From Thunnus maccoyii (Eukaryota > Chordata > Actinopteri > Scombriformes > Scombridae): DNA of 64,000 bases. The first letter of the stretch is position 1, and each line of letters starts with the position of its first letter. This document shows, one piece after another, positions 3,016 to 60,116 of this stretch. Location: the NCBI RefSeq assembly GCF_910596095.1, contig NC_056547.1:29577647-29641646 (forward strand), read 5' to 3'. The position numbers and the translations under genes were made by a program. Below the pieces are notes generated by a model, which was not told the origin of the DNA, did not search any database, and saw only the letters and a list, made by a program, of their open reading frames with translations.

Positions 3016-5029
3016 TCATGGCTTGAGTTTGAGCCAAGGGTGTACCATGGTGAGGATGGAGAGGACAGAGGAGGCCAGGCCACACGCCCCGACAAAGCCT
3101 GTCCCCGTGGGGTAAATCCCCAGCCGATCCAGCGGGATGAAGATATCACAACTGTTCTTCAGCAGGTCCAACAGCAGCGGCGGGTTACTGTACAGCACCG
3201 TCACCAGCAGGTGAAGCTGTCTGCGCAGCCACGCTGACATCATGGGCAGGGCGACGGCGGCCGGAGCGGCGGGTGAGGAGGAGGAGGAGGACAGATCATC
3301 AGAGGGCTGGGTGGTGGTGCTGGGGTAGGGTGAGGGTGGTGATTTGGTGGCTCTGTAACGTGCTTCACACTCCATGAGGAGATGGAGCTCGTACACGTCT
3401 CGGGTCAGGTTGAGGATCAGAGCAAAGAGGTAGTACCTGCAAGTTTTAAGCAAATGTTCAAGCACACAGTTGAACAAATTCAAATCTTTCAGCATGTATG
3501 ATCTTATGAAAACAACACTATGAAACTTATGTTACTGTGTCATTACACTGAAAAGTGTCACATCAGCTTCAGCTCAAAGGGTTACTGGTTATCTGACAAA
3601 GAGCCATAGATGCATTTGTTGTGAAAACGTACACATAAAACATAAGAAAAAAAACTAACTGACCTGAAAGATCTCTGACTCCACTTGTGCTGGTCCAGTT
3701 TAGAGATGAGGCCTGTTTTTCCAGCCCACAGGACATTATCACAGGCAAAGTACATGGCTCTGTTGAGGTGGCTGATGGTGAGGCAGAGCTTCAGCACACT
3801 GTCAGAGAGGTGTATGGCCCTCTTCGCTGCCTCCAGTGCCTCCACAGAGTTTCCCAAACGCAGCACTGCGTGACACAAACACACATCAGTTGTAACTTCT
3901 CAGCATTGTTACGTAGGAAAAAAAAAACAGTCAAACGAGCTGGTTCACTCACACTTTCTTGTCAGGCTCATATGTGCTTCCAGCTGACTGACAGTTTTGC
4001 GAAGTTCACCTGCTGCCCCTCCTTTCTGCAGTGTGTAGCCCAGCAGAGTGCAGGCATACTGGGCAGCCCTGTGACAGGACAACACACATGATCAATGAGC
4101 AAACCACAGCTTCCAGAATAATTCATGTAAGATGACGGAGACCTGGCCACACAGTTGAATTTTTATACATCATTTAGGGAAGCAGACTCACTGTGATGAG
4201 TGTCAAGAACTCATTCATCTCTTATAAAAAACAAACTCAAGTCTGGTTTAATAACTAAATGTTAGTGATTTTACAGTACAATACAGAATCTACACATCAA
4301 ACACAGACCATAGCGATTCATAATGAAGAAAATGGGGATCCAATGACAAAAGTTATGGTCACGACCAGAGTGGCACATATATAATATGATATGGCATATA
4401 AAATAATGACATTCAATTGAACACTTAACACTTAAACAAAGACAAAGAGCGCAGGAAACAAATGTAAATGTGTAAGATGCAACATTATATTCATGTATTT
4501 CTGGGTCTATAAACTTATTAGCTTTTATTTTATTTAAGTGCTCAAACTTCCAGTGCATTTAGAAAACACGTATGTGTTAAGCTGGAATTTTGTGTTGACA
4601 TTCAGAAATGTGCAATAACTGCAGCTCACACTGTTACACTGTGGTCAATGATATGTGCCTGCTCAACTCTTCACTATCACTCGTAAGGCCTGAGATGAAG
4701 CCAAGCCTGAAAACTCATCAAAAAGTCAAAAAAGTATATAATAAAGCAAGTCAGAACAACTTAGTTAGTTGAAAGTGTTATCTCTGTAGGGTAGCAACGT
4801 TCATCACTGTGCGTAAAGTTTTTTACTCATTTGTTTATAAGTTGTCTAACGTGACTTTAATTAAGCTAGCAGAGATGTAGCTAACTAGCAAACTTTGACT
4901 ACTTTAGCTACATTAACATTTGCAGCTACAGTGAGGTTTCAAACGTTATTGTTAATAAAAGCCATAACATTACCTAATAATTCTCTCCTTTGCTTGGCTC
5001 TGGGCGTTAAAGCGAACCCAAGAGTCCAT
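3016..5029 (-). CDS. pex11b: Peroxisomal membrane protein PEX11B
   Basis: PEX11 proteins sit in the peroxisome membrane and drive its elongation and division. Four coding exons on the - strand keep phase throughout: 4974-5029, 3953-4068, 3664-3865 and 3016-3436, totalling 795 nt or 264 aa (human PEX11B is 259). The protein starts [17 protein letters not shown], the PEX11 amphipathic N-terminal region. It continues with [46 protein letters not shown] and [18 protein letters not shown], and ends with a hydrophobic segment and PWLKLKP. A Ser/Pro/Thr-rich linker with an acidic DD and a run of six Ser (about residues 165-200) replaces the Gly-rich linker of the human protein. The start is chosen because MDSWVRF matches the family start and no better in-frame ATG is in the exon. 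The gene runs convergently towards ilf2. Confidence 0.93.
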
Positions 5030-16328: not shown

Positions 16329-30607
<14,279 letters not shown>

Positions 30608-35379: not shown

Positions 35380-37950
35380 GATAATAATAGAAACAAACAA
35401 ACAAAAACGCTGCAAAAAATTCTTGTAGTGTATCAACTGTATAAGCACATTTCTTATTGTTTATGATTTGGATAGACTCAAAATACTTATTACTACTACT
35501 GAAAGGTTCAGACGATGGGCGAGACTTTGAGAATTTGGCTTTACTGATGTGAAGTTTCCTCAGTAAAATGAATAACTTGACAGTCTGCTGAACCTTCTGC
35601 TTTTTGTTTTTATAGTATAGTATTACATCCTTGGCTTCTAATTGAATGATTGGTTTGAGTGTCAAAATAGTCCTCAATTTTCCAGAATCCCAATGTGTAT
35701 TGACATTCATAAAATACATGTTTAGTTGTTTCTTCTTCCTTTTTCCAAAATTCAAATTTTCTTTCAATTTGTTTGGGATAACGAATCTATCTGGGAGAAG
35801 TCATGTTGTTTCCCACTGAATATAAGGAAAATGGGAGTTCCACACAAATTTCCCCCGTGGAATAATTTCCCTTTTTCTGTGGAAATAATTTCTTATATTT
35901 TTATTAGTACATTAATATTTAATCTGTTAACAAAGATGGTAGGTTCCTGTAACTCTTGCCTCTCATAGTGGCATTTCATCATTGCAAGTGACAGGAAAGA
36001 TTTCAGATCTGAGAAATTCCACATAGCTGAGAATTTGAGCTTCATCGTTTTGTAGGTCTGCAAGAAAAAATTATATTCCTGTCAATACAATGTTGCAAAT
36101 AGAGTGATTTATTCTTTCAGGTTATGTACTCTATGTACTAATAGTTTTGTGAGGAGAGAAAGCATCATTTTGCTGCCATAAGAACCTGTTGATGAAAGTT
36201 AGACAACTGTTGTGGTAATTTTGTTGCAATTGTATTCTAAAAATATTCTGCAGTATGAAATGTCAAAAGGATTCTGGAGCTTTCAAATATTCTTTAATCC
36301 TTTTTAATGTGAAGGTATAGTCCAGTACCTCCATGTGTCCTTCACTTCTCAGGCTGCTAACATCTCCTTTTTTCAAATGATGGCATTTATTTTTCCAAAT
36401 AAAATTAATTAATAAGTGTTGTTTTTTTACCCTGTTGGATAAAAAGAGAGAGGGTAGGGTAAACAAATCTAGAGATACCATCTGCTTTACTCAGAAGAAC
36501 TCTGCCTAACAAGGACAAATCTCTCTGAAGCCACATTTTGGGCTTAAAATTATTTTCCTGTCGTTCAGTGAGATTTTTAGAAATATGGATTCCAAGGTAT
36601 TTAATACTTTTTTAAACTGGTATATCACACATTAAAGTTTCCTTAGTGTTATACACTAAGTGTGTAGTGTTATAGACTTAAGATTTCACATTTTGATACA
36701 TTAAATTTTCATTCTGATGGCAGAGAGAGGGGATGTATCTTATTGATTACTTTCTCAATTTGATGTTTGTTCTTTAAAAAAAGGACAGTGTCATCAGCTA
36801 ACTGAGTTATTCTGATCTCTCTCTCAAAAATACTTAAACCTTGACAATAAAGGCAATGTAAAATATGTATTGAAAGCAATTCAGCAACTATAAGAAAGAG
36901 AAACGGAGAACTGGGACAACCTTGACGGACTGATCCGTGAACTGGAAATCTTTTAGTGGTATTTGGAAACACGCTTCATCAGTAGCTACATCGAAGATGA
37001 ATGTTTTAACAAAGCCAAAGGTATGAAGTGACCTAATTAGGAACTGATGCTCCACTGTGTTGAATGCCTTTAAAAAAATCCAGAAATAAAATTAAGCATC
37101 TGATTCTACATATTCAGAGTAATCTATGAGATCAAGAATAAGCTTAATGTTACAAGTTGTATGTTGATTAGCCATAAGGCCGGTTTGAGTTTCATTTAAG
37201 ATTTCACTTAAGCCTTTTCTTAAACGTCTGGCAAAGATTAGTGAGAGTATTTTATAGTCTACATTTAGTAATGTTTTATTGCTCTCCAGTTATCTATCAA
37301 AAGATGATCTTTGTCTGCTTTGGGAAACAGTGTTATTATACCCTACCCATTTCTTCATTATAACATAGAGAAAAGCAGAGTTTCAATTATATTCCAAAAA
37401 CACTTATAAAATTCAATGGAAAGACCATCCATTCCTAGAGAGTTTCCTTTTTTCATTTTGTTACCAGCTTCAAATATGTCCGATTTTGAGATAGATTTAT
37501 CACAATCCAATCTAAATTCATTTGATATCAGTGGAGTAAATTCTCTTACAGTATTAGTACATTTCTAACACTCTGGTTATAGTTGGAACTATATAAATGA
37601 GAATGGCGTGATTCCCTACATCAGGAGGATTGGAATTTATAGTTATCTATTTTTAAAGATGTCACATTATTTCTCTTATAATGTATTTTTTCCAATGCAA
37701 AAAATAGCTTGTATTCCTCTCACCTTCCTCCAGCCATTTTGCTCTAGAACGTATAAAGGCTATTTTGTCATATTAATATATAATTGGTCTATTTCTTCTT
37801 TCAGACTTGACAATTTTGATTCTTCCTCTACTGTAAGAGTTCCTTTGTTTATTAAGGTATTAGTTCTTTTATAGTTTCAATTTCTTGGCTATACATTCAC
37901 TTCTCTGACCCCATATTGGTCATCATGCGTCACGAAGTCCGCCGTCTCAA
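35380..37950 (-). pseudogene. LINE (L1/Tx1-like) ORF2 remnant with reverse transcriptase motifs
   Basis: On the - strand, 36709-36972 encodes VRQGCPSSPFLFLIVAELL and, downstream, ITQLADDTVLFLKNK. These are RT motifs with the catalytic A-D-D kept. Further on, 36263-36481 gives LINFIWKNKCHHLKK, the 'FIW..K.H..KK' region after the RT, and 35372-35767 carries a Lys-rich C-terminal part with LHISKAKFSKSRPS. The pieces are collinear but separated by stops and frameshifts, so the copy is inactive. The 5' end is uncertain because the RT thumb/palm region fades near 37.9 kb. No endonuclease domain is visible. Same direction as smad4, within its 5' intron. Confidence 0.75.
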
Positions 37951-41157: not shown

Positions 41158-43073
41158 TCAGGGTTTACTGGGGGAGCGGGAGGTGAACACTCCTGACGCC
41201 TCCAGCATGGTCTTTCGTCGTGCTGTCTCCTTGGCTACGTTGTGGTTGAGTCGCCTCAGACGTTCCTGGGGACAGAATATTGAGGTTCATTTGTGGATTG
41301 TATATTACTTTACTGTTTGTTGCCATTTTTCTGTTTTTAAACCAGTTCAGCACCCGATGAGCTCTAGGAGCAATAGTAATAGTGATGGTGATAATAGTAA
41401 TTGTAGCAGTATAGTGGTATTAGGGGTGGTAGTGGTAGTAATGGTAGCAGTAGTGGCAGCTGTATTGGCAGTAGCACTTGCTACACTGCTTTGGTCTCCA
41501 CCAACTCCTGATAAATATCTGTCTGTTTAGCCATGTTCACCAGCTGGTCTCTAACTGTGTGCTGAGCAGGTAGTGTACAGTTGTTTATCAGAGATTTTTC
41601 TCGGAAAACAGCTGCCCACTGCTGTTGGAAACCAGGTTGATGAAAGAAGAATTTGCAGACCAGAAAACCACAACAAGCTGACCACAAACAACAAGCTGAA
41701 GTTGCTAAAAAGCTCAGTAGAGCTGATGGAAACTGCAGAGCTGTGATCATTCTCTGTGGAGCAACACCTTTAACATTACACATAGTCATTGTTGTTGATA
41801 TAAAAAACATTGACTTGTTCAGCTATTGAGTAACCTGAACAGGAGTCCCACACCAAAGGCTGGCCACTGACCTGAGCATTCTGCAGTATGTTGTTTACCA
41901 GCACTACTCTACGTCTTGCATTCAGCAGCTTCTTTACATAGGGGTCCAGGTCTAAAGCCACCTTCTGATGTTCATTTATCCTGCATAACTCTGCAAAGAA
42001 TGTACATTACAAGAAACACAAGACCAAACCACTTGTTAGCAAGCACATTTGTTATTTAAGGTACTTAATAAATGTATTAAAATGTTCATGTATCCACATA
42101 ATTACATATATTCAATTCAATTTTTGAAGCCTTTGCTAAAACTATATCAACATGCCCACATGTTCATTGACAGGTTTTTGTTGTAATTGTTCTGTCTGTG
42201 CATAGTGTGAAGAAAATTCCTTCTTAAAGTGATTTTAATGTAAGTGATGGGGGAAAAAATCACAGACCAGTTGTGTGTAAAAATGCAGTTTATGGTTCAG
42301 CTGGGTCTAAGTTAATGAGCATCATAATAGCTTCAGCTGAATCTTGAAAGGCCTATCACACAGAAAGAGGGTGGATAATTCATTTCCCTAAAATAGGGAT
42401 TTCTTTGTGGCCGCTATGGAGAGAAGGATTACTTACAGTGACCAAAAACGATTTCAATGTACATATGGGCGCATACCATTTGTATTAAGATAGGCTTTAA
42501 AATTGTGAACTTATCCTTTAACATACACATTATCAAGTTATTTACCTGTGGCAAGATTGTCTATGTGTTCTCTTAATTCCACCTGGCTCTCTCTGCAAAG
42601 ATAAAAAAATCATCACAATAATAATAAAGTGGAAAGTGACGAGATGAAGAATGCCGCACATTTTTTTAGTGTAAATGCAATGGAGTTATGCAAATCCTGT
42701 TTATATTCATTATTGAAATACGCAGTTTCACTGAAATCATTCTAAACAAACATTTACAAAGAAAATACACAGCAAACAAGTATTCAGGTGAAATTTCACA
42801 TACACAGCGGGAAATGTTAAATATAAAAAGCTGATAAACACCACCGAGTAGACATATACACAAGTCACGAGATACGAGATTCTGACAGGCAGCAGCGGCG
42901 TGTGATGTAGATGAATAAACATCATAAATTAAAGATTCAATAACGAACCCAATTTACCTGACTGAGTGCACATGCAAGTCGAGTTGCTGAATAGCTGGTT
43001 TCAGTAGGTCGAGCAGCCCTTCGGCAATAACATCTTTACCTGAAGAAGTCTCTACTAGAGCTACCGCAGCCAT
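41158..43073 (-). CDS. snapin: SNAPIN (BLOC-1/BORC subunit, SNAP25-associated)
   Basis: Snapin is a small coiled-coil subunit shared by the BLOC-1 and BORC complexes. It acts in lysosome-related organelle biogenesis, lysosome positioning and synaptic vesicle priming. Four coding exons keep phase: 42958-43073, 42546-42592, 41872-41990 and 41158-41265, making 390 nt or 129 aa (human 136). The order of motifs matches the family: KDVIAEGLLDLLKPAIQQLD, VRESQVELREHIDNLAT, ELCRINEHQKVALDLDPYVK, KLLNARRRVVLVNNILQNAQ and ERLRRLNHNVAKETARRK. The N-terminus is shorter than in mammals, which have a Gly/Ala/Pro-rich head. The start is the first ATG, preceded by AGTAAA and embedded in the shared promoter. 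Its neighbour chtop diverges from it, as in the human locus. Confidence 0.96.
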
Positions 43074-52661: not shown

Positions 52662-52697
52662 TATAAATTATTTCGCAGAACAGTCAGAGTTCTTTCC
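52662..52697 (+). promoter_or_regulatory. TATA box plus 5'TOP-like start of the snoRNA host gene
   Basis: TATAAATT begins at 52662. Exactly 30 nt downstream, at 52692, the sequence reads CTTTCC: a C followed by pyrimidines, the 5'TOP start typical of ribosomal-protein and snoRNA-host transcripts. The first exon then ends at a consensus donor, CAG|GTAAGT, after 52748. The start site is inferred from these motifs only. Confidence 0.55.
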
Positions 52698-53558
52698 GAC
52701 GTTGTCCTTGGTAGCGCGAAGGCTTCTGGAAGAGAGCGCGCAGAACAGGTAAGTTTCTTGAGTTAGTTACTAGATCTTTAACATATGTGGAATGACGAAT
52801 GACATCCACACACGAGCACCGTGGTTCAGCACGTGTGAATTTATCCGAAAGTTGAAACGTGACGTCTCCAAATGTTGAGCGCCACATTGTCCTCGTGTGG
52901 CGCGGTGACTGTAGCTAACAGTTAGCTCGATGCTAACATGGCTATGTAGTAGTCGTGTCTTCAGTGCGTTGTGCACTCGTTTCTGGTTAACTACTAACAC
53001 TCCCATTATTTTGAGTAAGTTTCTGTCCAATAAAGCGGGGAAAAGGCTTAATGGGCACATATTTGACTTGCAAAACCCTATTCTGTGCACCGCCTGAAAC
53101 TTGATATGCTGAGGACATTAATTTACTAGCAACACAAATTACACACAAAAGCTGCCGTAGCCACAATTAGCGCCTCCTATATACTTGTAATAACATTTGA
53201 GATGTTGCCTTGAGTACATCAGAGGGAATTAAGTTTCTGTTTTCTTTGATTATAGATGGCAGTTGGACGAAGAAAGCAGCTGCTACCCTTGTTGCCACGT
53301 CGTTTGGTCAAGAAATGGAGAATCACCTGAGAAATGGGTTTTATAAAGCTGCTCAAACCAGCAGCAAGTATCTACAACTGGCTGATAAGGTTTGTCAAGT
53401 TTTTGTGTATTTTGACAGTGGGGAAAATCTTAGTCATGAATAAATGAAAGGAATAAGCTAGGGCTAATTGTGCTATTAATAATGTCAAGATGAAGAGTGC
53501 AAACACAAATGCAGAGTGACAGCAAATGACCTGCCATGTTCATAAAATCACTGCCTGT

Positions 53559-53590
53559 GGGGGAGGGGAGGGGAGGGGAGGGGAGGGGAG
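53559..53590. repeat. (GGGGA)n tract
   Basis: About six GGGGA units in intron 2 of the snoRNA host gene. Four or more G-runs of four could form a G-quadruplex in the RNA. Confidence 0.85.
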
Positions 53591-53620
53591 AAATAACCCA
53601 TAACTTGAATCATCCACTTC

Positions 53621-53747
53621 AGTGCCACAGTTCAGACTAATCAGTGGGGTTGTCCTGTTCAGTGGGCTGATCCCAGGCCAGCAGTGGCTACAGAACATCA
53701 GGTTTTGCTTTCACCTCTGCACTGATGGTTGCTGAACGGTGACAATG
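53621..53747 (+). ncRNA. H/ACA snoRNA candidate 1 (host intron 2)
   Basis: The 5' hairpin is closed by GCCAC (53624-53628) with GTGGC, with an inner stem ATCAG/CTGAT. It is followed by an H box, ACAGAA, at 53690-53695. The 3' hairpin (CATC paired with GGTG at its base) is followed by ACA at 53742-53744, three nucleotides before the predicted end. The 3' hairpin is the weakest of the set, so this call is less certain than the others. Confidence 0.5.
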
Positions 53748-54890
53748 AGGCCTGGCACACTCACCTGTCTGTTGGTTTTAATGTTTTGCCTTGACAACAG
53801 TGTATTATACATAAAATGCAATATGCATGAGGTATCCTATACATATTTAGTTACTAGCTTGGCTACAAGGTGCTTCAGTGGCATATTGAGAGAAATGAAA
53901 CCCAATCTCTCTTTTGTAGGTGATGACCTCATTGCTGGGAGTGTGATGTGGAAGAGCCCTTGCAGTATGTGCTGCCCCTCTGGGACATGAGGTTAGTATT
54001 TGTCATCTTGGTAATGAGTCTTACTGTATTCACTGGAAGAAATAAAATCAAGCCTCTCTGCTTAGAATGAGTTAGCCTGGAGACTGGTGTGCAGCACAGA
54101 GTTCTCCTGAGTAGAGATGCACACATTGCCATCACACTCTGCTGTGCAGAGTTGATGTAAAGCCACTGTCAGTGTTGTGGGCGTGTTTGCTCTAATTGCC
54201 CACCATGTCATTCCAATTAAGATAAGGAGGTTTCCAGCTGGAATGATAGCATGTTAAGTGTGTGCTGATGTTTTAGTTTGTCAAGTAAGATCAAAAAATA
54301 CTCAACAACCTTTTTTTCTTTCTAAGTTTCATGACAAACTTGATTAAAACTAAAGTAAGCTTTTAATAGACAAATGAACTAATTACCGTTTTAATGCTAA
54401 GTCTTATTAAATGATCTGCATGCGTCTGTGCAATCACACTGACACTGCTGCTGCCCAAAAATATCTTCATTCAGAAGTTGATTTATCCAGTTTACCTTTA
54501 ACTCTACTGTCAGTAAGAAGCATCTTACACTCAGTAACATCTGCTGGATACAGCACAATACTTGAGTGTTTGTGGGTTGTTTTTTTTTGTTGTTTTTTTT
54601 TGGTTTTTCTTTTCTTTTTAAATCTTATTATGATTACATGATTTTGAAAATCCTGATGCTACCCAAACATTCCTGGGAAATATAATAGAAAAAGTAATGT
54701 TCTCCCAACACTGCACATAAAATGGCTAATGAAAGAAATGCAAAATGAAAGAATCAGAATATCACCTGTATATTGAAACATACTTCTATTTAAACACATC
54801 CTCTGTTTATAAATTGCAGGCAGTACAGTGGAAACACAACCAGAACTCTGACAATGACTACACATTATGTTTAAGTGTAAAATGTTTGTT

Positions 54891-55019
54891 GGCACAGTAT
54901 GAGCTCTGGTCCTGTCAGGTGGGCCGTAGAGCTCCATACAGTGCAAAGAGCAATTAATTCTCTTGCAACCCACTGCTGTTCACTCTCTGCAGCAGTGTTA
55001 CTGATGAGAAGTGACAGCT
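54891..55019 (+). ncRNA. H/ACA snoRNA candidate 2 (host intron 3)
   Basis: The 5' hairpin pairs GCAC...GTGC and TATG-GCTCT...AGAGC-CATA. The H box AGAGCA is at 54947-54952. The 3' hairpin has a basal stem TTCTC/GAGAA, symmetrical internal loops that could form a pseudouridylation pocket, and an inner stem CACTGCTG/CAGCAGTG. ACA is at 55014-55016, three nucleotides before the end. The 3' end lies 68 nt before the acceptor of exon 4, a usual spacing for vertebrate intronic snoRNAs. Confidence 0.75.
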
Positions 55020-55154
55020 GCTTCTTTGACAGCTTGTTAATGTTTGCTAATGCCAGTGGATTTTAACAGTGTTGTGTCTGTGGCAGGTGCAGGTGCAGGA
55101 GCAGACCACCAGCCAGCAGGGTAAGTTGTGCTACAGAATACATCCACTAGTGAC

Positions 55155-55225
55155 TTGTTATGATGATTGGCTAAATATGTTCAACTGCTCTGAAACTGTG
55201 AGTGACAGCTGCCTCTCTGAACAAC
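55155..55225 (+). ncRNA. C/D-box snoRNA with 28S rRNA guide (host intron 4)
   Basis: Box C ATGATGA is at 55160-55166 and box D CTGA at 55217-55220. The flanks TTGT (55155-55158) and ACAA (55221-55224) form the terminal stem. An internal D' CTGA is at 55190-55193, with a C'-like TGAGTGA at 55199-55205. The 13 nt before D' (ATGTTCAACTGCT) are exactly complementary to AGCAGTTGAACAT of vertebrate 28S rRNA, as I know that conserved stretch. By the D+5 rule it would direct 2'-O-methylation of the last G of AGCAG. The 3' end is 74 nt before the exon 5 acceptor. Confidence 0.78.
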
Positions 55226-55544
55226 GTAATGACTCTGAGATCTGAATGTGCTGATGCTCCTGGAAACATATCCTTCATCCTGCCTCTTCCTCCTACAGGT
55301 TTCTGCTGCAGCCTCCCCTCCTTGCCTCTCTGCACTGAGGCAACAGCATGGAAGTACAAAGGGTGTGTATTGACATCACTGTTTCCCATGACACCCACCA
55401 CCCCCACCAAGTGCCAAAACAAACCAACAGGTGGCTGCTATAAATGGATAGAGCTGTGATACTAGGAGGAAAACAAACCACAATCAGCAGTGACATTGTA
55501 CAGGACACTCAATGGATTAGCATAAACTAGAGACAGACTAGTAA

Positions 55545-55683
55545 CAGCACTGTATGGTATCTGCAGCCAGCTGGATCGTCAGCTGGTTTGTTCATAAGTC
55601 AGTGCTAGAGAATCTCAACATGTGGCATCGTTGGTCTCCTTGCTGCATGTGTGTGGAGTCCTGGTATATCTGTTGAAACACAC
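55545..55683 (+). ncRNA. H/ACA snoRNA candidate 3, copy A (host intron 5)
   Basis: The 5' hairpin is closed by AGCACTG/CAGTGCT, with an inner stem CCAGCTG/CAGCTGG. The H box AGAGAA is at 55607-55612. The 3' hairpin base is CAACA/TGTTG, and ACA is at 55678-55680, three nucleotides before the end. It lies within a 159-bp block (55540-55698) repeated without any difference at 56705-56863. Confidence 0.75.
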
Positions 55684-56181
55684 CCATCCTCTAAGAAAAC
55701 AGGTTGATCATGGATTTGAAACCACTCTTTAATTGTCTATAGTTATTAAAAGTGATGTGTAGAGCAGATATGTTACTGTAGGAGCAGTTCATCCATCTTT
55801 TAAATTAGGACTCTTGTTTGTAGTGTTGACTCAAAGCAGAAGTTGTACTGTGTAAAGTGCAGGCAGTCAAAGGAAACATCAGGGATACACACTTTCTCAT
55901 CTGGTCTCCCAATACTGATTCCAGTTAAATAAACTGGGGGAGGGATGCTGAGTACCGTCTGATGCAGTGCTTTTATTTTTCTCTGTACACCTGGCTGTGT
56001 GGAACTGACTGATTATTCTTAATGTATGTGAGGCTGTAAACAGATTTCTTACTGTCCTGCCTCTACTTCCTGCAGGTTTGCACTGCAGTAAGAGCCTCCT
56101 TATCCCAAGGCTTCAGCAGGGATTCAACAATAAGAGGTGAGTGTCAAAGTGAAAGAAATGATTTGGCTGATTTGGTGAAAG

Positions 56182-56314
56182 CTGAGGTCTATCCCGACAG
56201 ACCTTGATCTGTAGGGTCATGTCGTTGGAAATGCCTCAGAGAGCAAATCTGTAGTTTCGCTTTACCCACATGTTCACTGCCATGAGCCCTGTGGGATATT
56301 ACTGCAGAACATAC
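56182..56314 (+). ncRNA. H/ACA snoRNA candidate 4 (host intron 6)
   Basis: The 5' hairpin is closed by CTGAGG/CCTCAG, with an inner ACAGA/TCTGT. The H box AGAGCA is at 56240-56245. The 3' hairpin is closed by CTGTAG/CTGCAG with inner CCCACA/TGTGGG. ACA is at 56309-56311, three nucleotides before the end. Both hairpins and both boxes fit the family well; the guided site is not worked out. Confidence 0.75.
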
Positions 56315-56709
56315 GCTGACCTGTGGACACTGTTTGAGTAGTAGCAGGCAGTGCTCCACCGTAATGTACCATGACAACACTGGTGTCTGACAAATAACTC
56401 TTCATCAGACATCTGAGCCACAGGAAGCTCGACTCTGGTGCAGAATGAACAGAAGATGTATGAGTGAAGTCAGGTTTCACTTTGTGTGAACAGCAGTTGA
56501 CTTTTTGCTATTAAAGTTGTGCTTTTAAAACTTATTTTACACCATCATGTGACTGTCATGTCATTTGTTGGCACTTTACTGAAAGTTGTCACTCTCTCTT
56601 CAGGTCACACTGATGACAGAATCATGAGTCTTATGGACTTCCAACAGTGGTGAGTGGGTTTGTCTTTCTATGATTACATCATGTGTGAATGACTGGATGT
56701 TAACAGTAA

Positions 56710-56848
56710 CAGCACTGTATGGTATCTGCAGCCAGCTGGATCGTCAGCTGGTTTGTTCATAAGTCAGTGCTAGAGAATCTCAACATGTGGCATCGTTGGT
56801 CTCCTTGCTGCATGTGTGTGGAGTCCTGGTATATCTGTTGAAACACAC
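56710..56848 (+). ncRNA. H/ACA snoRNA candidate 3, copy B (host intron 7)
   Basis: Identical over 159 bp (56705-56863) to copy A in intron 5, so it has the same hairpins, H box (56772-56777) and ACA (56843-56845). The flanks diverge at once on both sides, so the duplication unit or later conversion tract matches the snoRNA closely. Confidence 0.75.
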
Positions 56849-57577
56849 CCATCCTCTAAGAAATCATGTTCATGTAGTCCTGAGCCTGCTGGCTGATCCA
56901 CAGGAGCTGACTAAAGAACAGGCTGCTTCTACACACATCCAGATTTTAATTTCTTGCTGTGAAATTGCTCACTTCACGTTTTTAGCTTTATGATGAAGTC
57001 TCTATTCTTTCTACATTAGGTTTTATATCAAAGTATACCCACTTTTGGTTGAATGTGGCTGTGATGTGTGTGTGTGTGTGGAAAATGATCACATGAATGA
57101 CATGGTACACTAATAAAAATGCATGTGCTTGTCATCAACACGTTTCTGATTTTTAAATCCTGATTCTTGTTCTGCAGGTTTGTGCAGTAGAGCAGAGCCT
57201 CCTTTACCCAGCCTCCATCCAGCCTGATGTAACACAGGTGAGCATTAATGTCAAGCTTGTAACATTTTTTTGTTTTATATTAATCATCACAGGTCAAGTC
57301 AGTATTTTATATAACAAGAATCCTTCTGATGAATGAAGATGTGCAGAAGTTTCTTTTTGTTATTTAGACCTACAATAACAGTTATAATCTAGGAAATGGA
57401 ACTGATGTTTCACCTGAGTGTTTGTGAAGATCAAGGAAATATGAAATGTATAAGATATACTTCAGTGATTGAATGAATAAACTGCTTTCAGATTGCTGAA
57501 CCATCCTGGAGACATCCATGAGGACTGTCAGCAGCCCTTCACTGTGAGTATCCACCACTGCCTCCTCTGCTTTGTGT

Positions 57578-57702
57578 TTGGTCATATACCAAGGCTTTCA
57601 GGCATCTCTGTTCCTGACTTGCTGTGGAATTGACCAGAAAATAAAACCCATCCCAGCGGGTTTCTTTAGCAGCCTGCTGAAGAAAACCTGCAGGGAACAT
57701 GA
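57578..57702 (+). ncRNA. H/ACA snoRNA candidate 5 (host intron 9)
   Basis: The 5' hairpin is closed by GGTCA/TGACC with inner TCAGG/CCTGA. The H box AGAAAA is at 57636-57641. The 3' hairpin has base CCC/GGG and a long stem TTTCTTTAGC/GCTGAAGAAA. ACA is at 57697-57699, three nucleotides before the end. Confidence 0.72.
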
Positions 57703-60116
57703 CCTGTCTTTTGCTTCTGTTGTCAGTTTTACAATACTTTTATCAACCTAATATTTGATCATCTGTGTCATTTGAAAGTGATGCATGAATAAAATCACTG
57801 TAACACTTTGTTGTTGAATGCAACAGCTGAACCTTTGCATCCTTTATTTTTCAGAAGCAGCAGATTGACGCAGAGCTCTGGGACCAGCTGACAACACTGA
57901 TCAGTACTTTGATATGCTGTCACTTGCTTTGTAATTATCACATTTGTAAAAACAGGTGTGTTTACTGCATCAGATTTTGTTTGTTTTCTACTCTGTGCTC
58001 AATAAAAAAAAATCAGTGACTCAATAACTCCTCACTTTTCTTTTAGTCTCGTAATATCTTAACAATAAGGATAAAATGACATGTGTACAGGTTTCTATAA
58101 ACTGACTGAATGTCAGTAAAAAAACAGGTCACTGCAGGCGATAAGTCTGTAGGTGAACTTTCTAACAGGATGTACACTACACAGCAGAACAATTGTGTTC
58201 TTCCAGTGCTACGGTGTACACAATAACACGTTCACTAAAATCAAAGTCAGTGCAATGGATGAAAAGTGCTGTCATACATGTAAGCATGTGTGTTTCATTC
58301 AAAACAAAATGTTCTGTAATGTAGTGTAATTTATCAACTCAAATACTGCAGAGATGAAATGACATCTTTCCTGAGCTGGCTGTTTGTACTAGAGTTCACT
58401 ACAGCTTCCTGCTGAAATGTGGGATTTGATACATCAAGAGCAAAGGTCAATGTCCTCAGGTACCATGGATGAATTCAGAGAAGAAGACAGAACCTAAGCA
58501 CCAACACTGGTCTGGTTCCTATCAATCAGAGAATGGAGTCGTCAGCATCCTGCTGGGGAGGTTGTGGTCGATTTTGAGACCTAAAAAATTTAAGAATCGG
58601 TCTGATTAATAACCCGAAGATAAATGCTGAGATAAAATAATTTTAGACGATCTAAAACATGATGCATTACAAATAATTGATATGATCTCCCCCAGAACTG
58701 GTTCACTATATATCCATGTTTGTAACTGTGGCAGTACGTTTCCTCCACTAGGGGGCAGCAGGGTTACACTAGCAGAGTAACTCAGCTGTTAAACAGACAA
58801 TGAGTTCAGGTTTCATCATGTTCTTTCAGGAGTCATCCTGGAAAGGAGGCTCTTTTCTGATTGGGTGGCACAACAGAATGTCTCCTGACAACCTTCTTTA
58901 GCTCTCTGTGATATAAAAAGCCAACGTTTTGTATTGTAATTAAGTATTTGTCCTCTGTCCATCTATTATGTTTTGACATGCATGAGCCTGTGGAGCTCAC
59001 CACAGGTGCATGTATTGCTTTGTGCACGTTACGTCACTCAGCTCATTCATTGGCTGACAAACATGTACCCATCTCATTCATTGGTCGGACACATTGTTGC
59101 TTACTGATCACCTCAAAGCACATCACTCAGTTTTTTCCTTTACGTACAAACATCAAGCACAAGGCAGGTAGTTATTGCCACCTAATTACATAAGTCTCTA
59201 TTTCAGTGAACGTGTAACAGTACACTCATATCATACATGCATGCATATTTTGTTTACAGGAAGTGCAGAATCAGAGGACTGATCAATTCACTTTCTGAAT
59301 AACAGCCTATATTCTCAGTAAAGAAGCAAGCTGCCGACTCTTTACAACCAGCCTCTACGTCTTCAAATGACTGAGGATTTGGGTGCAGTATCCCTTTAAA
59401 GAACATTCTGCCGATGGAATCAGGGCGTCTACAAAAAATTGGGTGAAAGTTCACAGAAGGGAACAAAGAGATGTCATCAGATCCAAAACAGCTTCTAGTC
59501 CACGCCGCAAGGAACAGCAGTTGGCTGTGCAGGTCACATGACGCCATACGTACAGAAGAAAGAGCTGCGAGAGAAGAGAATGCCACACATTCAAAAACTT
59601 CTCTTCATCACAGCTTGAAACATTAGCACCAATATATATTTAATTTCAATGATGCAGTCAGCCAGGCGGAGCCACAGACAGACTGATGTTCATGTCGTCT
59701 TCAACAAATCTGACTGCAAAGAATTAGACCCCATGTTGGACCATTGTATCCACTTCTCAGAATAACAGGACTTCTGCTAATGAAACATTATGAAGACACT
59801 GTATCTCTGTGATGTCCTCTTCAGTCCTCATATATGAGGCGTCCATAGAATTACACTTACAATCCAATACAACAGCCCTGCAACAAACACTATCTTGGCT
59901 TCTAATGGTCAGTACACAGATATATAACATATACATACAGTACATGTAAAGCATGGGTGTAGTTATATATGCAGTGGTACAAGAAACATCTATATACACT
60001 AGGTAGTAAATGGATGAAGAACTAATGTAACTATTTACATTACAATACACTTAGGCCATGTACATGGTGTGCACATTGTGAAAATAGCTGTGCATGTGCA
60101 CATATTTAAACATTTG

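Follow-up and report, generated by a model that had tools for sequence, protein, structure and literature searches.

In a 64,000-nucleotide (nt) window of the Thunnus maccoyii genome (NCBI RefSeq assembly GCF_910596095.1, contig NC_056547.1, positions 29,577,647 to 29,641,646 of the forward strand, numbered here from 1), a ten-exon plus-strand gene model spans 52,692-58,025, with chtop on one side and txnip on the other. We read this locus as a fish host gene for small nucleolar RNAs (snoRNAs), one that carries most of the set of the TAF1D/JOSD3 type found in human and chicken, and from the sequence we put the probability of that reading at about 0.93. It is built on motifs, on architecture, on family resemblance, and on the guide complementarity of three of the snoRNAs to presumed ribosomal RNA (rRNA) letters.

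snoRNAs in the introns

Seven snoRNAs, all on the plus strand and one each in predicted introns 2, 3, 4, 5, 6, 7, and 9, are named by Rfam as SNORA1, SNORA40, snoZ40, SNORA8, SNORA18, SNORA8, and SNORA32, in that order. The preliminary description of this DNA, made by a model from its letters, had seen snoRNA-like structures in seven of nine introns, six of the H/ACA and one of the C/D class, and this is borne out by the Rfam covariance search, which gave one match in every claimed intron (3 above the gathering threshold and 4 below), by the boxes, and by a separate H/ACA scan. The three matches above gathering are the only ones in the 64 kb. They are SNORA18 in intron 6 (56181-56314; H box AGAGCA at 56240, ACA at 56309; RF00425, 98.8 bits, gathering 70, E = 2.6e-16) and two copies of SNORA8, copy 1 in intron 5 (55546-55683; H box AGAGAA at 55607, ACA at 55678) and copy 2 in intron 7 (56711-56848; H box AGAGAA at 56772, ACA at 56843), each at 59.0 bits against RF00393 (gathering 38). 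The remaining four are a SNORA1-like RNA in intron 2 (53623-53762; H box ACAGAA at 53690, ACA at 53757; RF00408, 44.6 bits, gathering 70, E = 2.4e-4), a SNORA40-like RNA in intron 3 (54891-55018; H box AGAGCA at 54947, ACA at 55014; RF00561, 33.9 bits, gathering 51, E = 0.043), the C/D snoRNA in intron 4 (55153-55226; C box ATGATGA at 55160, D' box CTGA at 55190, D box CTGA at 55217; snoZ40, RF00342, 49.3 bits, gathering 50, E = 1.8e-7), and a SNORA32-like RNA in intron 9 (57579-57702; H box at one of 57636-57641, ACA at 57697; RF00421, 40.4 bits, gathering 60, E = 0.0066). Since these scores lie under gathering, the four are named here as "-like" RNAs or counterparts and not as formal Rfam members. 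By bit score the snoRNAs of the locus are the top seven of the 28 matches in the window at E <= 10, and no further SNORA family is found in the 64 kb at that limit.

The anatomy of the six H/ACA candidates is uniform, with two hairpins, an ANANNA hinge, and a 3'-terminal ACA in all of them. In the H/ACA scan, which is independent of the Rfam family models, covers both strands of the 64 kb, and was devised with the loci already known, the same six rank first, each with hairpin energies that add up to -41.6 or less; the next candidate reaches -36.8, 4.8 kcal/mol short of the least stable of the six, and 11 weaker candidate rows come from other parts of the window. Fold z-scores against shuffled sequences are -4.01 for SNORA18, -5.22 for SNORA32, and -3.57 for SNORA40. 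The C/D snoRNA, one of two C/D candidates in the window, has a terminal stem of 4 bp, and its 3' end lies 72 nt ahead of the end of intron 4. The optimum distance of a C/D snoRNA from the 3' splice site is 70-80 nt, and the spacing was thus counted in favor of a host gene.

Separate searches of introns 1 and 8 and of the initial 0.9 kb of intron 3, run under relaxed filters, gave weak and unrelated matches only, and introns 1 and 8 have no credible Rfam match. Within intron 8 there is a 60-nt hairpin at 57309-57368 (fold z of -2.39 for 57300-57375); a mir-7552 match in this intron, at 26.9 bits against a gathering threshold of 59, was judged to be chance or unproven. A run of GGGGA repeats at 53559-53590 in intron 2, directly upstream of SNORA1, is a possible G-quadruplex-forming tract.

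According to PMC2653536, the introns of human JOSD3 hold ACA40, ACA18, mgh28S-2409, ACA8, ACA1, mgh28S-2411, ACA32, and ACA25, and the same eight snoRNAs, in another order, are placed in the chicken gene ENSGALESTG00000033205 (cluster 15), a host classed there as novel protein-coding and with an mRNA 45% similar to JOSD3. JOSD3 is equated with TAF1D in PMC2804597, and PMC4234469 assigns SNORA25 with SNORA32, and SNORD5 with SNORA18, to this gene on chromosome 11. All five H/ACA families of the fish locus fall inside the six-member H/ACA set of JOSD3/TAF1D, for which the chance with five random families would be ~1e-6 to 1e-7 (taking an assumed pool of 60-100 families). Because all five belong to one co-hosted set, the sub-threshold Rfam matches are very probably correct.

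Guide pairing was computed against presumed vertebrate rRNA letters. Through its D' guide, the C/D RNA pairs over 13 nt with 28S and places at +5 the last G of AGCAG, which we take as the mgh28S-2411 (SNORD6) site, and hence the name SNORD6-like; the SNORD5 site would presumably be the C two bases upstream of that G. The 3' pocket of SNORA40 pairs over 7+4 nt with 18S GGAGUA(U)GGUUGCAA, and that of SNORA1 over 7+6 nt, with one G-U pair, with 28S AUCAUUG(U)GAAGCAGA. The corresponding entries in the chicken table are 28S-G-2185, 13 nt, 5' for mgh28S-2411; 18S-1132, 3' hairpin, 7+4 nt for SNORA40; and 28S-3926, 3' pocket, 5+6 for ACA1 (PMC2653536). These three guides thus appear to fit the sites listed for chicken, within the presumed letters. 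Over all H/ACA pockets, 3 matches were obtained on the presumed rRNA against a mean of 0.47 on shuffled rRNA.

Sequenced rRNA was also sought in public contigs. Animal 28S patterns gave 0 matches in viral contigs, twice, and in genome contigs 0 and then 8 loci, all of them on contigs of bacterial metagenome-assembled genomes; four of these were passed through cmscan, which named all four eukaryotic large-subunit rRNA. Compared with the presumed animal sites, the SNORA40 18S context was present with 2 mismatches in 2/8 of the loci, the SNORA1 28S context with 1-2 mismatches in 2/8, and the 2411 region in 0/8.

Gene model, promoter, and coding capacity

The splice borders of the model were ranked by position weight matrix (PWM), with assumed frequencies, against all plus-strand sites of the window (GT, n = 4082; AG, n = 4218), and 16 of the 18 fall within the top 5%. 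Exon 1 (52692-52748) is without an ATG and ends in the donor CAG|GTAAGT, at 12.6 bits in the top 0.0% of GT sites. Exon 2 (53256-53389; acceptor top 4.4%) has as its first codon the first ATG, which opens a 24-codon frame and then a stop. The others, all on the plus strand, are exon 3 (53920-53991; acceptor top 0.1%, donor top 2.7%), exon 4 (55087-55120; acceptor top 4.1%, donor top 0.3%, with an alternative acceptor giving 55093 or 55099), exon 5 (55299-55362; 0.0% and 1.9%), exon 6 (56076-56136; 0.2% and 0.1%), exon 7 (56604-56649; 0.2% and 0.5%), exon 8 (57178-57237; 0.1% and 0.1%), exon 9 (57492-57543; donor top 2.9%), and exon 10 (57855-58006, taken to the AATAAA signal; acceptor top 0.7%). 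The claim of ten short exons with good splice sites therefore stands for the exons and for 16 borders, and does not for donor 2 and acceptor 9. When strong acceptor-donor pairs were counted as exon-like at cut-offs of 9/7, the interval 53.0-58.0 kb accounted for 7 of the 24 plus-strand pairs in the window and for none of the 8 on the minus strand, 4 of the 7 being exons of the model; at cut-offs of 10/9, 3 of the 4 plus-strand pairs lay at the locus, and all three are model exons. By this count the locus is only modestly special.

A TATA box, TATAAAT at 52662-52668 on the plus strand, was read from the sequence, and its TATAAA lies ~30 nt upstream of the TCT/5'-terminal-oligopyrimidine (5'TOP)-like initiator TTCTTTCC at 52690-52697, which matches the TCT initiator consensus YYC+1TTTYY and gives a predicted start at about C52692. 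Both motifs are where the preliminary description had put them. Two TATA plus TOP pairs of this kind were counted over both strands of the 64 kb, against 0.33 expected, and the pair is modest evidence for a promoter at which the start site is a predicted one. For zebrafish, PMC6954239 describes snoRNA host genes in which YR initiation is combined with TOP/YC initiation. At the other end an AATAAA signal stands at 58001-58006, with cleavage probably slightly downstream. The spliced model amounts to 731 nt (summed exons, cut at 58005) and has stops in all three frames, in keeping with the earlier statement that it holds no continuous reading frame. A Pfam search with every open piece of at least 20 residues in the spliced RNA, 14 in all over the three frames, returned no credible match, the sole one (E = 0.27) being judged chance, and no match to TAF1D in any of the 14, a negative that holds for a library whose possession of a suitable TAF1D model was unchecked.

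Parts of the gene seem to have been copied within it. A block of 159 nt at 55540-55698 (+), comprising SNORA8 with 6 nt of 5' and 15 nt of 3' flank, is identical to 56705-56863, and the flanks of the two blocks in introns 5 and 7 are otherwise unrelated; identity over this length within unrelated flanks suggests that the copying, or a gene conversion, was probably recent. Inspected by eye, neither copy is flanked by a poly(A) tail or an evident target-site duplication, so that retroposition seems a less likely source of the second SNORA8 than copying nearby or gene conversion. In a three-way alignment, similar stretches of intron end and exon start were found at exons 5, 6, and 8 (55262-55375, 56039-56149, and 57145-57250), those of exons 5 and 6 agreeing at 82% over 34 nt (E = 6e-4), hinting that exon-intron modules were duplicated within the host gene.

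Neighboring genes

The placement between chtop and txnip is supported at the level of domains. The chtop gene is backed by a FoP_duplication match (2.5e-21), and its last identified coding piece ends by 50.5 kb, ~2 kb upstream of host exon 1; on the far side, two Arrestin_N exons on the plus strand begin at ~62.9 kb, in a gene that we take to be txnip. Elsewhere the window holds, on the minus strand, a SMAD gene at 16332-25759 with MH2 and MH1 exons, the MH1 exon being closest to Smad4 in PDB (possibly the fish smad4-like paralogue, smad10), a Snapin/Pallidin domain at 41779-42006, and a PEX11 domain at 3585-3899. We take PEX11, Snapin, chtop, and txnip to be reminiscent of genes of human 1q21 and not of the 11q21 surroundings of TAF1D. 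A reverse-transcriptase fragment at 36712-36975 on the minus strand (RVT_1, 1.4e-7) is a remnant like those of long interspersed nuclear elements.

Discussion

The simplest account of these observations is a snoRNA host gene of the small nucleolar RNA host gene (SNHG) plan, which the sequence supports well: short exons, no long frame, and one snoRNA per intron on the host strand, as the preliminary description had proposed. From its anatomy and from known hosts, RNA polymerase II would start at the TATA plus TCT/TOP promoter, and the transcript would be spliced to an RNA of ~0.73 kb without a long frame. Each of the seven introns would then yield one snoRNA, trimmed out as a ribonucleoprotein, and the snoRNAs would guide rRNA pseudouridylation and one 2'-O-methylation. 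The spliced RNA may be a by-product and, if translated, a target of nonsense-mediated decay (NMD), because the stop of its first frame, 24 codons long, lies upstream of eight exon junctions.

Several results weigh against this account. Four of the seven snoRNAs (SNORA1, SNORA32, SNORA40, and snoZ40) are under Rfam gathering, and a ranking by E-value puts SNORA40 (0.043) after mir-3149 (0.018) and SCARNA7 (0.029), two matches on a TA/TG repeat near 60.1 kb, with the other six snoRNAs at the head of the list. The folds of SNORA1 (z of -0.15) and SNORA8 (-1.25) are not clearly better than those of shuffled sequences. Two splice borders are weak by PWM, donor 2 at the top 9.0% and acceptor 9 at the top 14.6%, and at cut-offs of 9/7 the opening 5 kb of the window contains as many plus-strand exon-like pairs (7) as the locus. 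Among the guides, the pocket match of SNORA32 on presumed 28S, one of the 3 counted above, was not accepted, as it could not be matched to the chicken ACA32 site; SNORA8 and SNORA18 gave no target in the presumed rRNA stretches, and both are orphans in the chicken table (PMC2653536). Nor were all members of the set found. A search of the window for a C2409-type guide of SNORD5 with at most 2 mismatches gave 5 places, of which none was accepted: the closest, with 1 mismatch, coincides with the SNORD6-like site, and the other four, with 2 mismatches, lie outside the locus. SNORA25 is not listed by Rfam in the window at E <= 10. The Ensembl counts for SNORA25 in PMC2832892 are 0 for zebrafish, medaka, and Xenopus, and also for chicken; since chicken SNORA25 is reported in PMC2653536, these zeros are weak evidence of absence.

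What else might such a locus be? It could belong to a fast-evolving fish taf1d, as its 3' part or as one of its non-coding isoforms, with the coding exons missed. In human, non-coding TAF1D isoforms that retain several H/ACA snoRNAs exist beside the canonical one (PMC9394076), and at the 45% similarity of the chicken host mRNA to JOSD3 a diverged coding sequence could go unnoticed. However, the TATA/TOP promoter is directly upstream of exon 1, chtop coding sequence ends ~2 kb further upstream, and none of the 14 open pieces has a credible Pfam match. Moreover, in a 2009 alignment study TAF1D is conserved between human and mouse only and not in zebrafish (PMC2804597), which leaves room for a TAF1D that is absent from fish or too diverged in them. 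We consider a missed taf1d improbable. The notion that the snoRNAs were copied here and are decaying while working copies reside elsewhere draws on the doubled SNORA8 and on the four sub-gathering scores, yet fish members are to be expected under gathering, with models that are mostly mammalian; the locus retains intact H, ACA, C, D', and D boxes; three of its guides suit presumed rRNA; and 16 of 18 splice sites are good, with one snoRNA per intron. A relic of this kind is accordingly very unlikely, and that snoRNA-like structures and signals resembling splice sites arose by chance in ordinary intergenic DNA is scarcely credible at all. It is true that H/ACA motifs are degenerate, that weaker scan candidates occur elsewhere in the window, and that strong exon-like pairs do so too, but chance does not account for E-values down to 2.6e-16, for named H/ACA families that all belong to one known co-hosted set, or for the lack, outside the locus, of any SNORA family match in the window at E <= 10. 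For SNORA18 and SNORA8 a chance origin was already refuted by the Rfam search.

With a host gene of the SNHG plan as the preferred reading, the novelty lies in the fish host and where it sits; the snoRNA set itself is known from human and chicken and is here extended to a fish. It had been suggested that the gene might be fish-specific, moved, or lost in mammals. For the snoRNAs, fish-specificity and loss are rejected, as human JOSD3/TAF1D and its chicken counterpart host the five H/ACA families and the C/D guide (PMC2653536), and for the locus a move is possible. Among the literature matches listed, judged by title or the opening of the abstract, none concerns a fish snoRNA host at the chtop-txnip position, in a search that took in neither subscription journals nor genome databases; the locus may well be in Ensembl-type databases already, as an unnamed long non-coding RNA with some of these snoRNAs. 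For a locus otherwise resembling a non-coding gene of no clear role, the reading proposes a function.

Comparison with known host genes

In human TAF1D (JOSD3/MGC5306, chromosome 11), SNORA40, 18, 8, 1, and 32 and SNORD6 lie in different introns, and all have counterparts in the fish locus. The human host encodes a subunit of SL1, whereas no such frame was found in the fish model; and the human set as listed also has SNORD5, SNORA25, and a single SNORA8, whereas in fish neither of the former was found and SNORA8 is present twice. The order of the chicken set, read from intron numbers, is D5-A40-A1-D6-A18-A8-A32-A25, from which the fish order differs by a swap of A1 and A40, by the extra SNORA8, and by D5 and A25, which were not found. 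For the six shared snoRNAs, counting SNORA8 copy 2, fish and chicken agree in 4/5 adjacencies (p = 0.033) and 14/15 pair orders (p = 0.008), and fish and human, with the human order taken as the listing order in PMC2653536, in 1/5 (p = 0.88) and 10/15 (p = 0.23). With copy 1 counted instead, the figures are 2/5 (p = 0.56) and 13/15 (p = 0.028) against chicken and 1/5 and 9/15 against human; human and chicken themselves share 2/5 and 11/15. The fish order thus resembles that of chicken more closely than that of human, to a degree that varies with the SNORA8 copy counted.

The comparison suggests that the snoRNA set and part of its order have been kept while the surrounding exons are not recognizably conserved. 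The locus offers in this way a natural test of whether host RNA or host protein is of any importance, and of the time at which the RNA polymerase I factor TAF1D joined the rRNA-modifying snoRNAs. A speculative extension, which we hold to be possible and rather doubtful, is that one snoRNA set outlived its host, being carried by a non-coding gene between chtop and txnip in fish and by TAF1D in human, either through the move of a block or because a non-coding host of greater age acquired the TAF1D coding sequence, whether this arose there or was grafted on. If so, it would follow from the agreement of fish and chicken that the mammalian order is derived; and if TAF1D coding sequence did originate in or join a snoRNA host, rRNA transcription and rRNA modification would have come under one promoter.

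As to its general plan, the fish locus, with a candidate TOP-like start, is laid out like the SNHG-type hosts GAS5 and SNHG1/UHG, which have a 5'TOP start, short exons, no long frame, and snoRNAs in successive introns, and of which GAS5 hosts C/D snoRNAs. SNHG1 likewise hosts C/D snoRNAs, namely SNORD22 and SNORD25-31 (PMC5295409). A block of NMD stabilizes GAS5 and UHG (PMC6954239), and like them the spliced RNA of the fish locus is a likely NMD target. Unlike the C/D-hosting SNHG1 and GAS5, the fish locus has six H/ACA RNAs among its seven snoRNAs.

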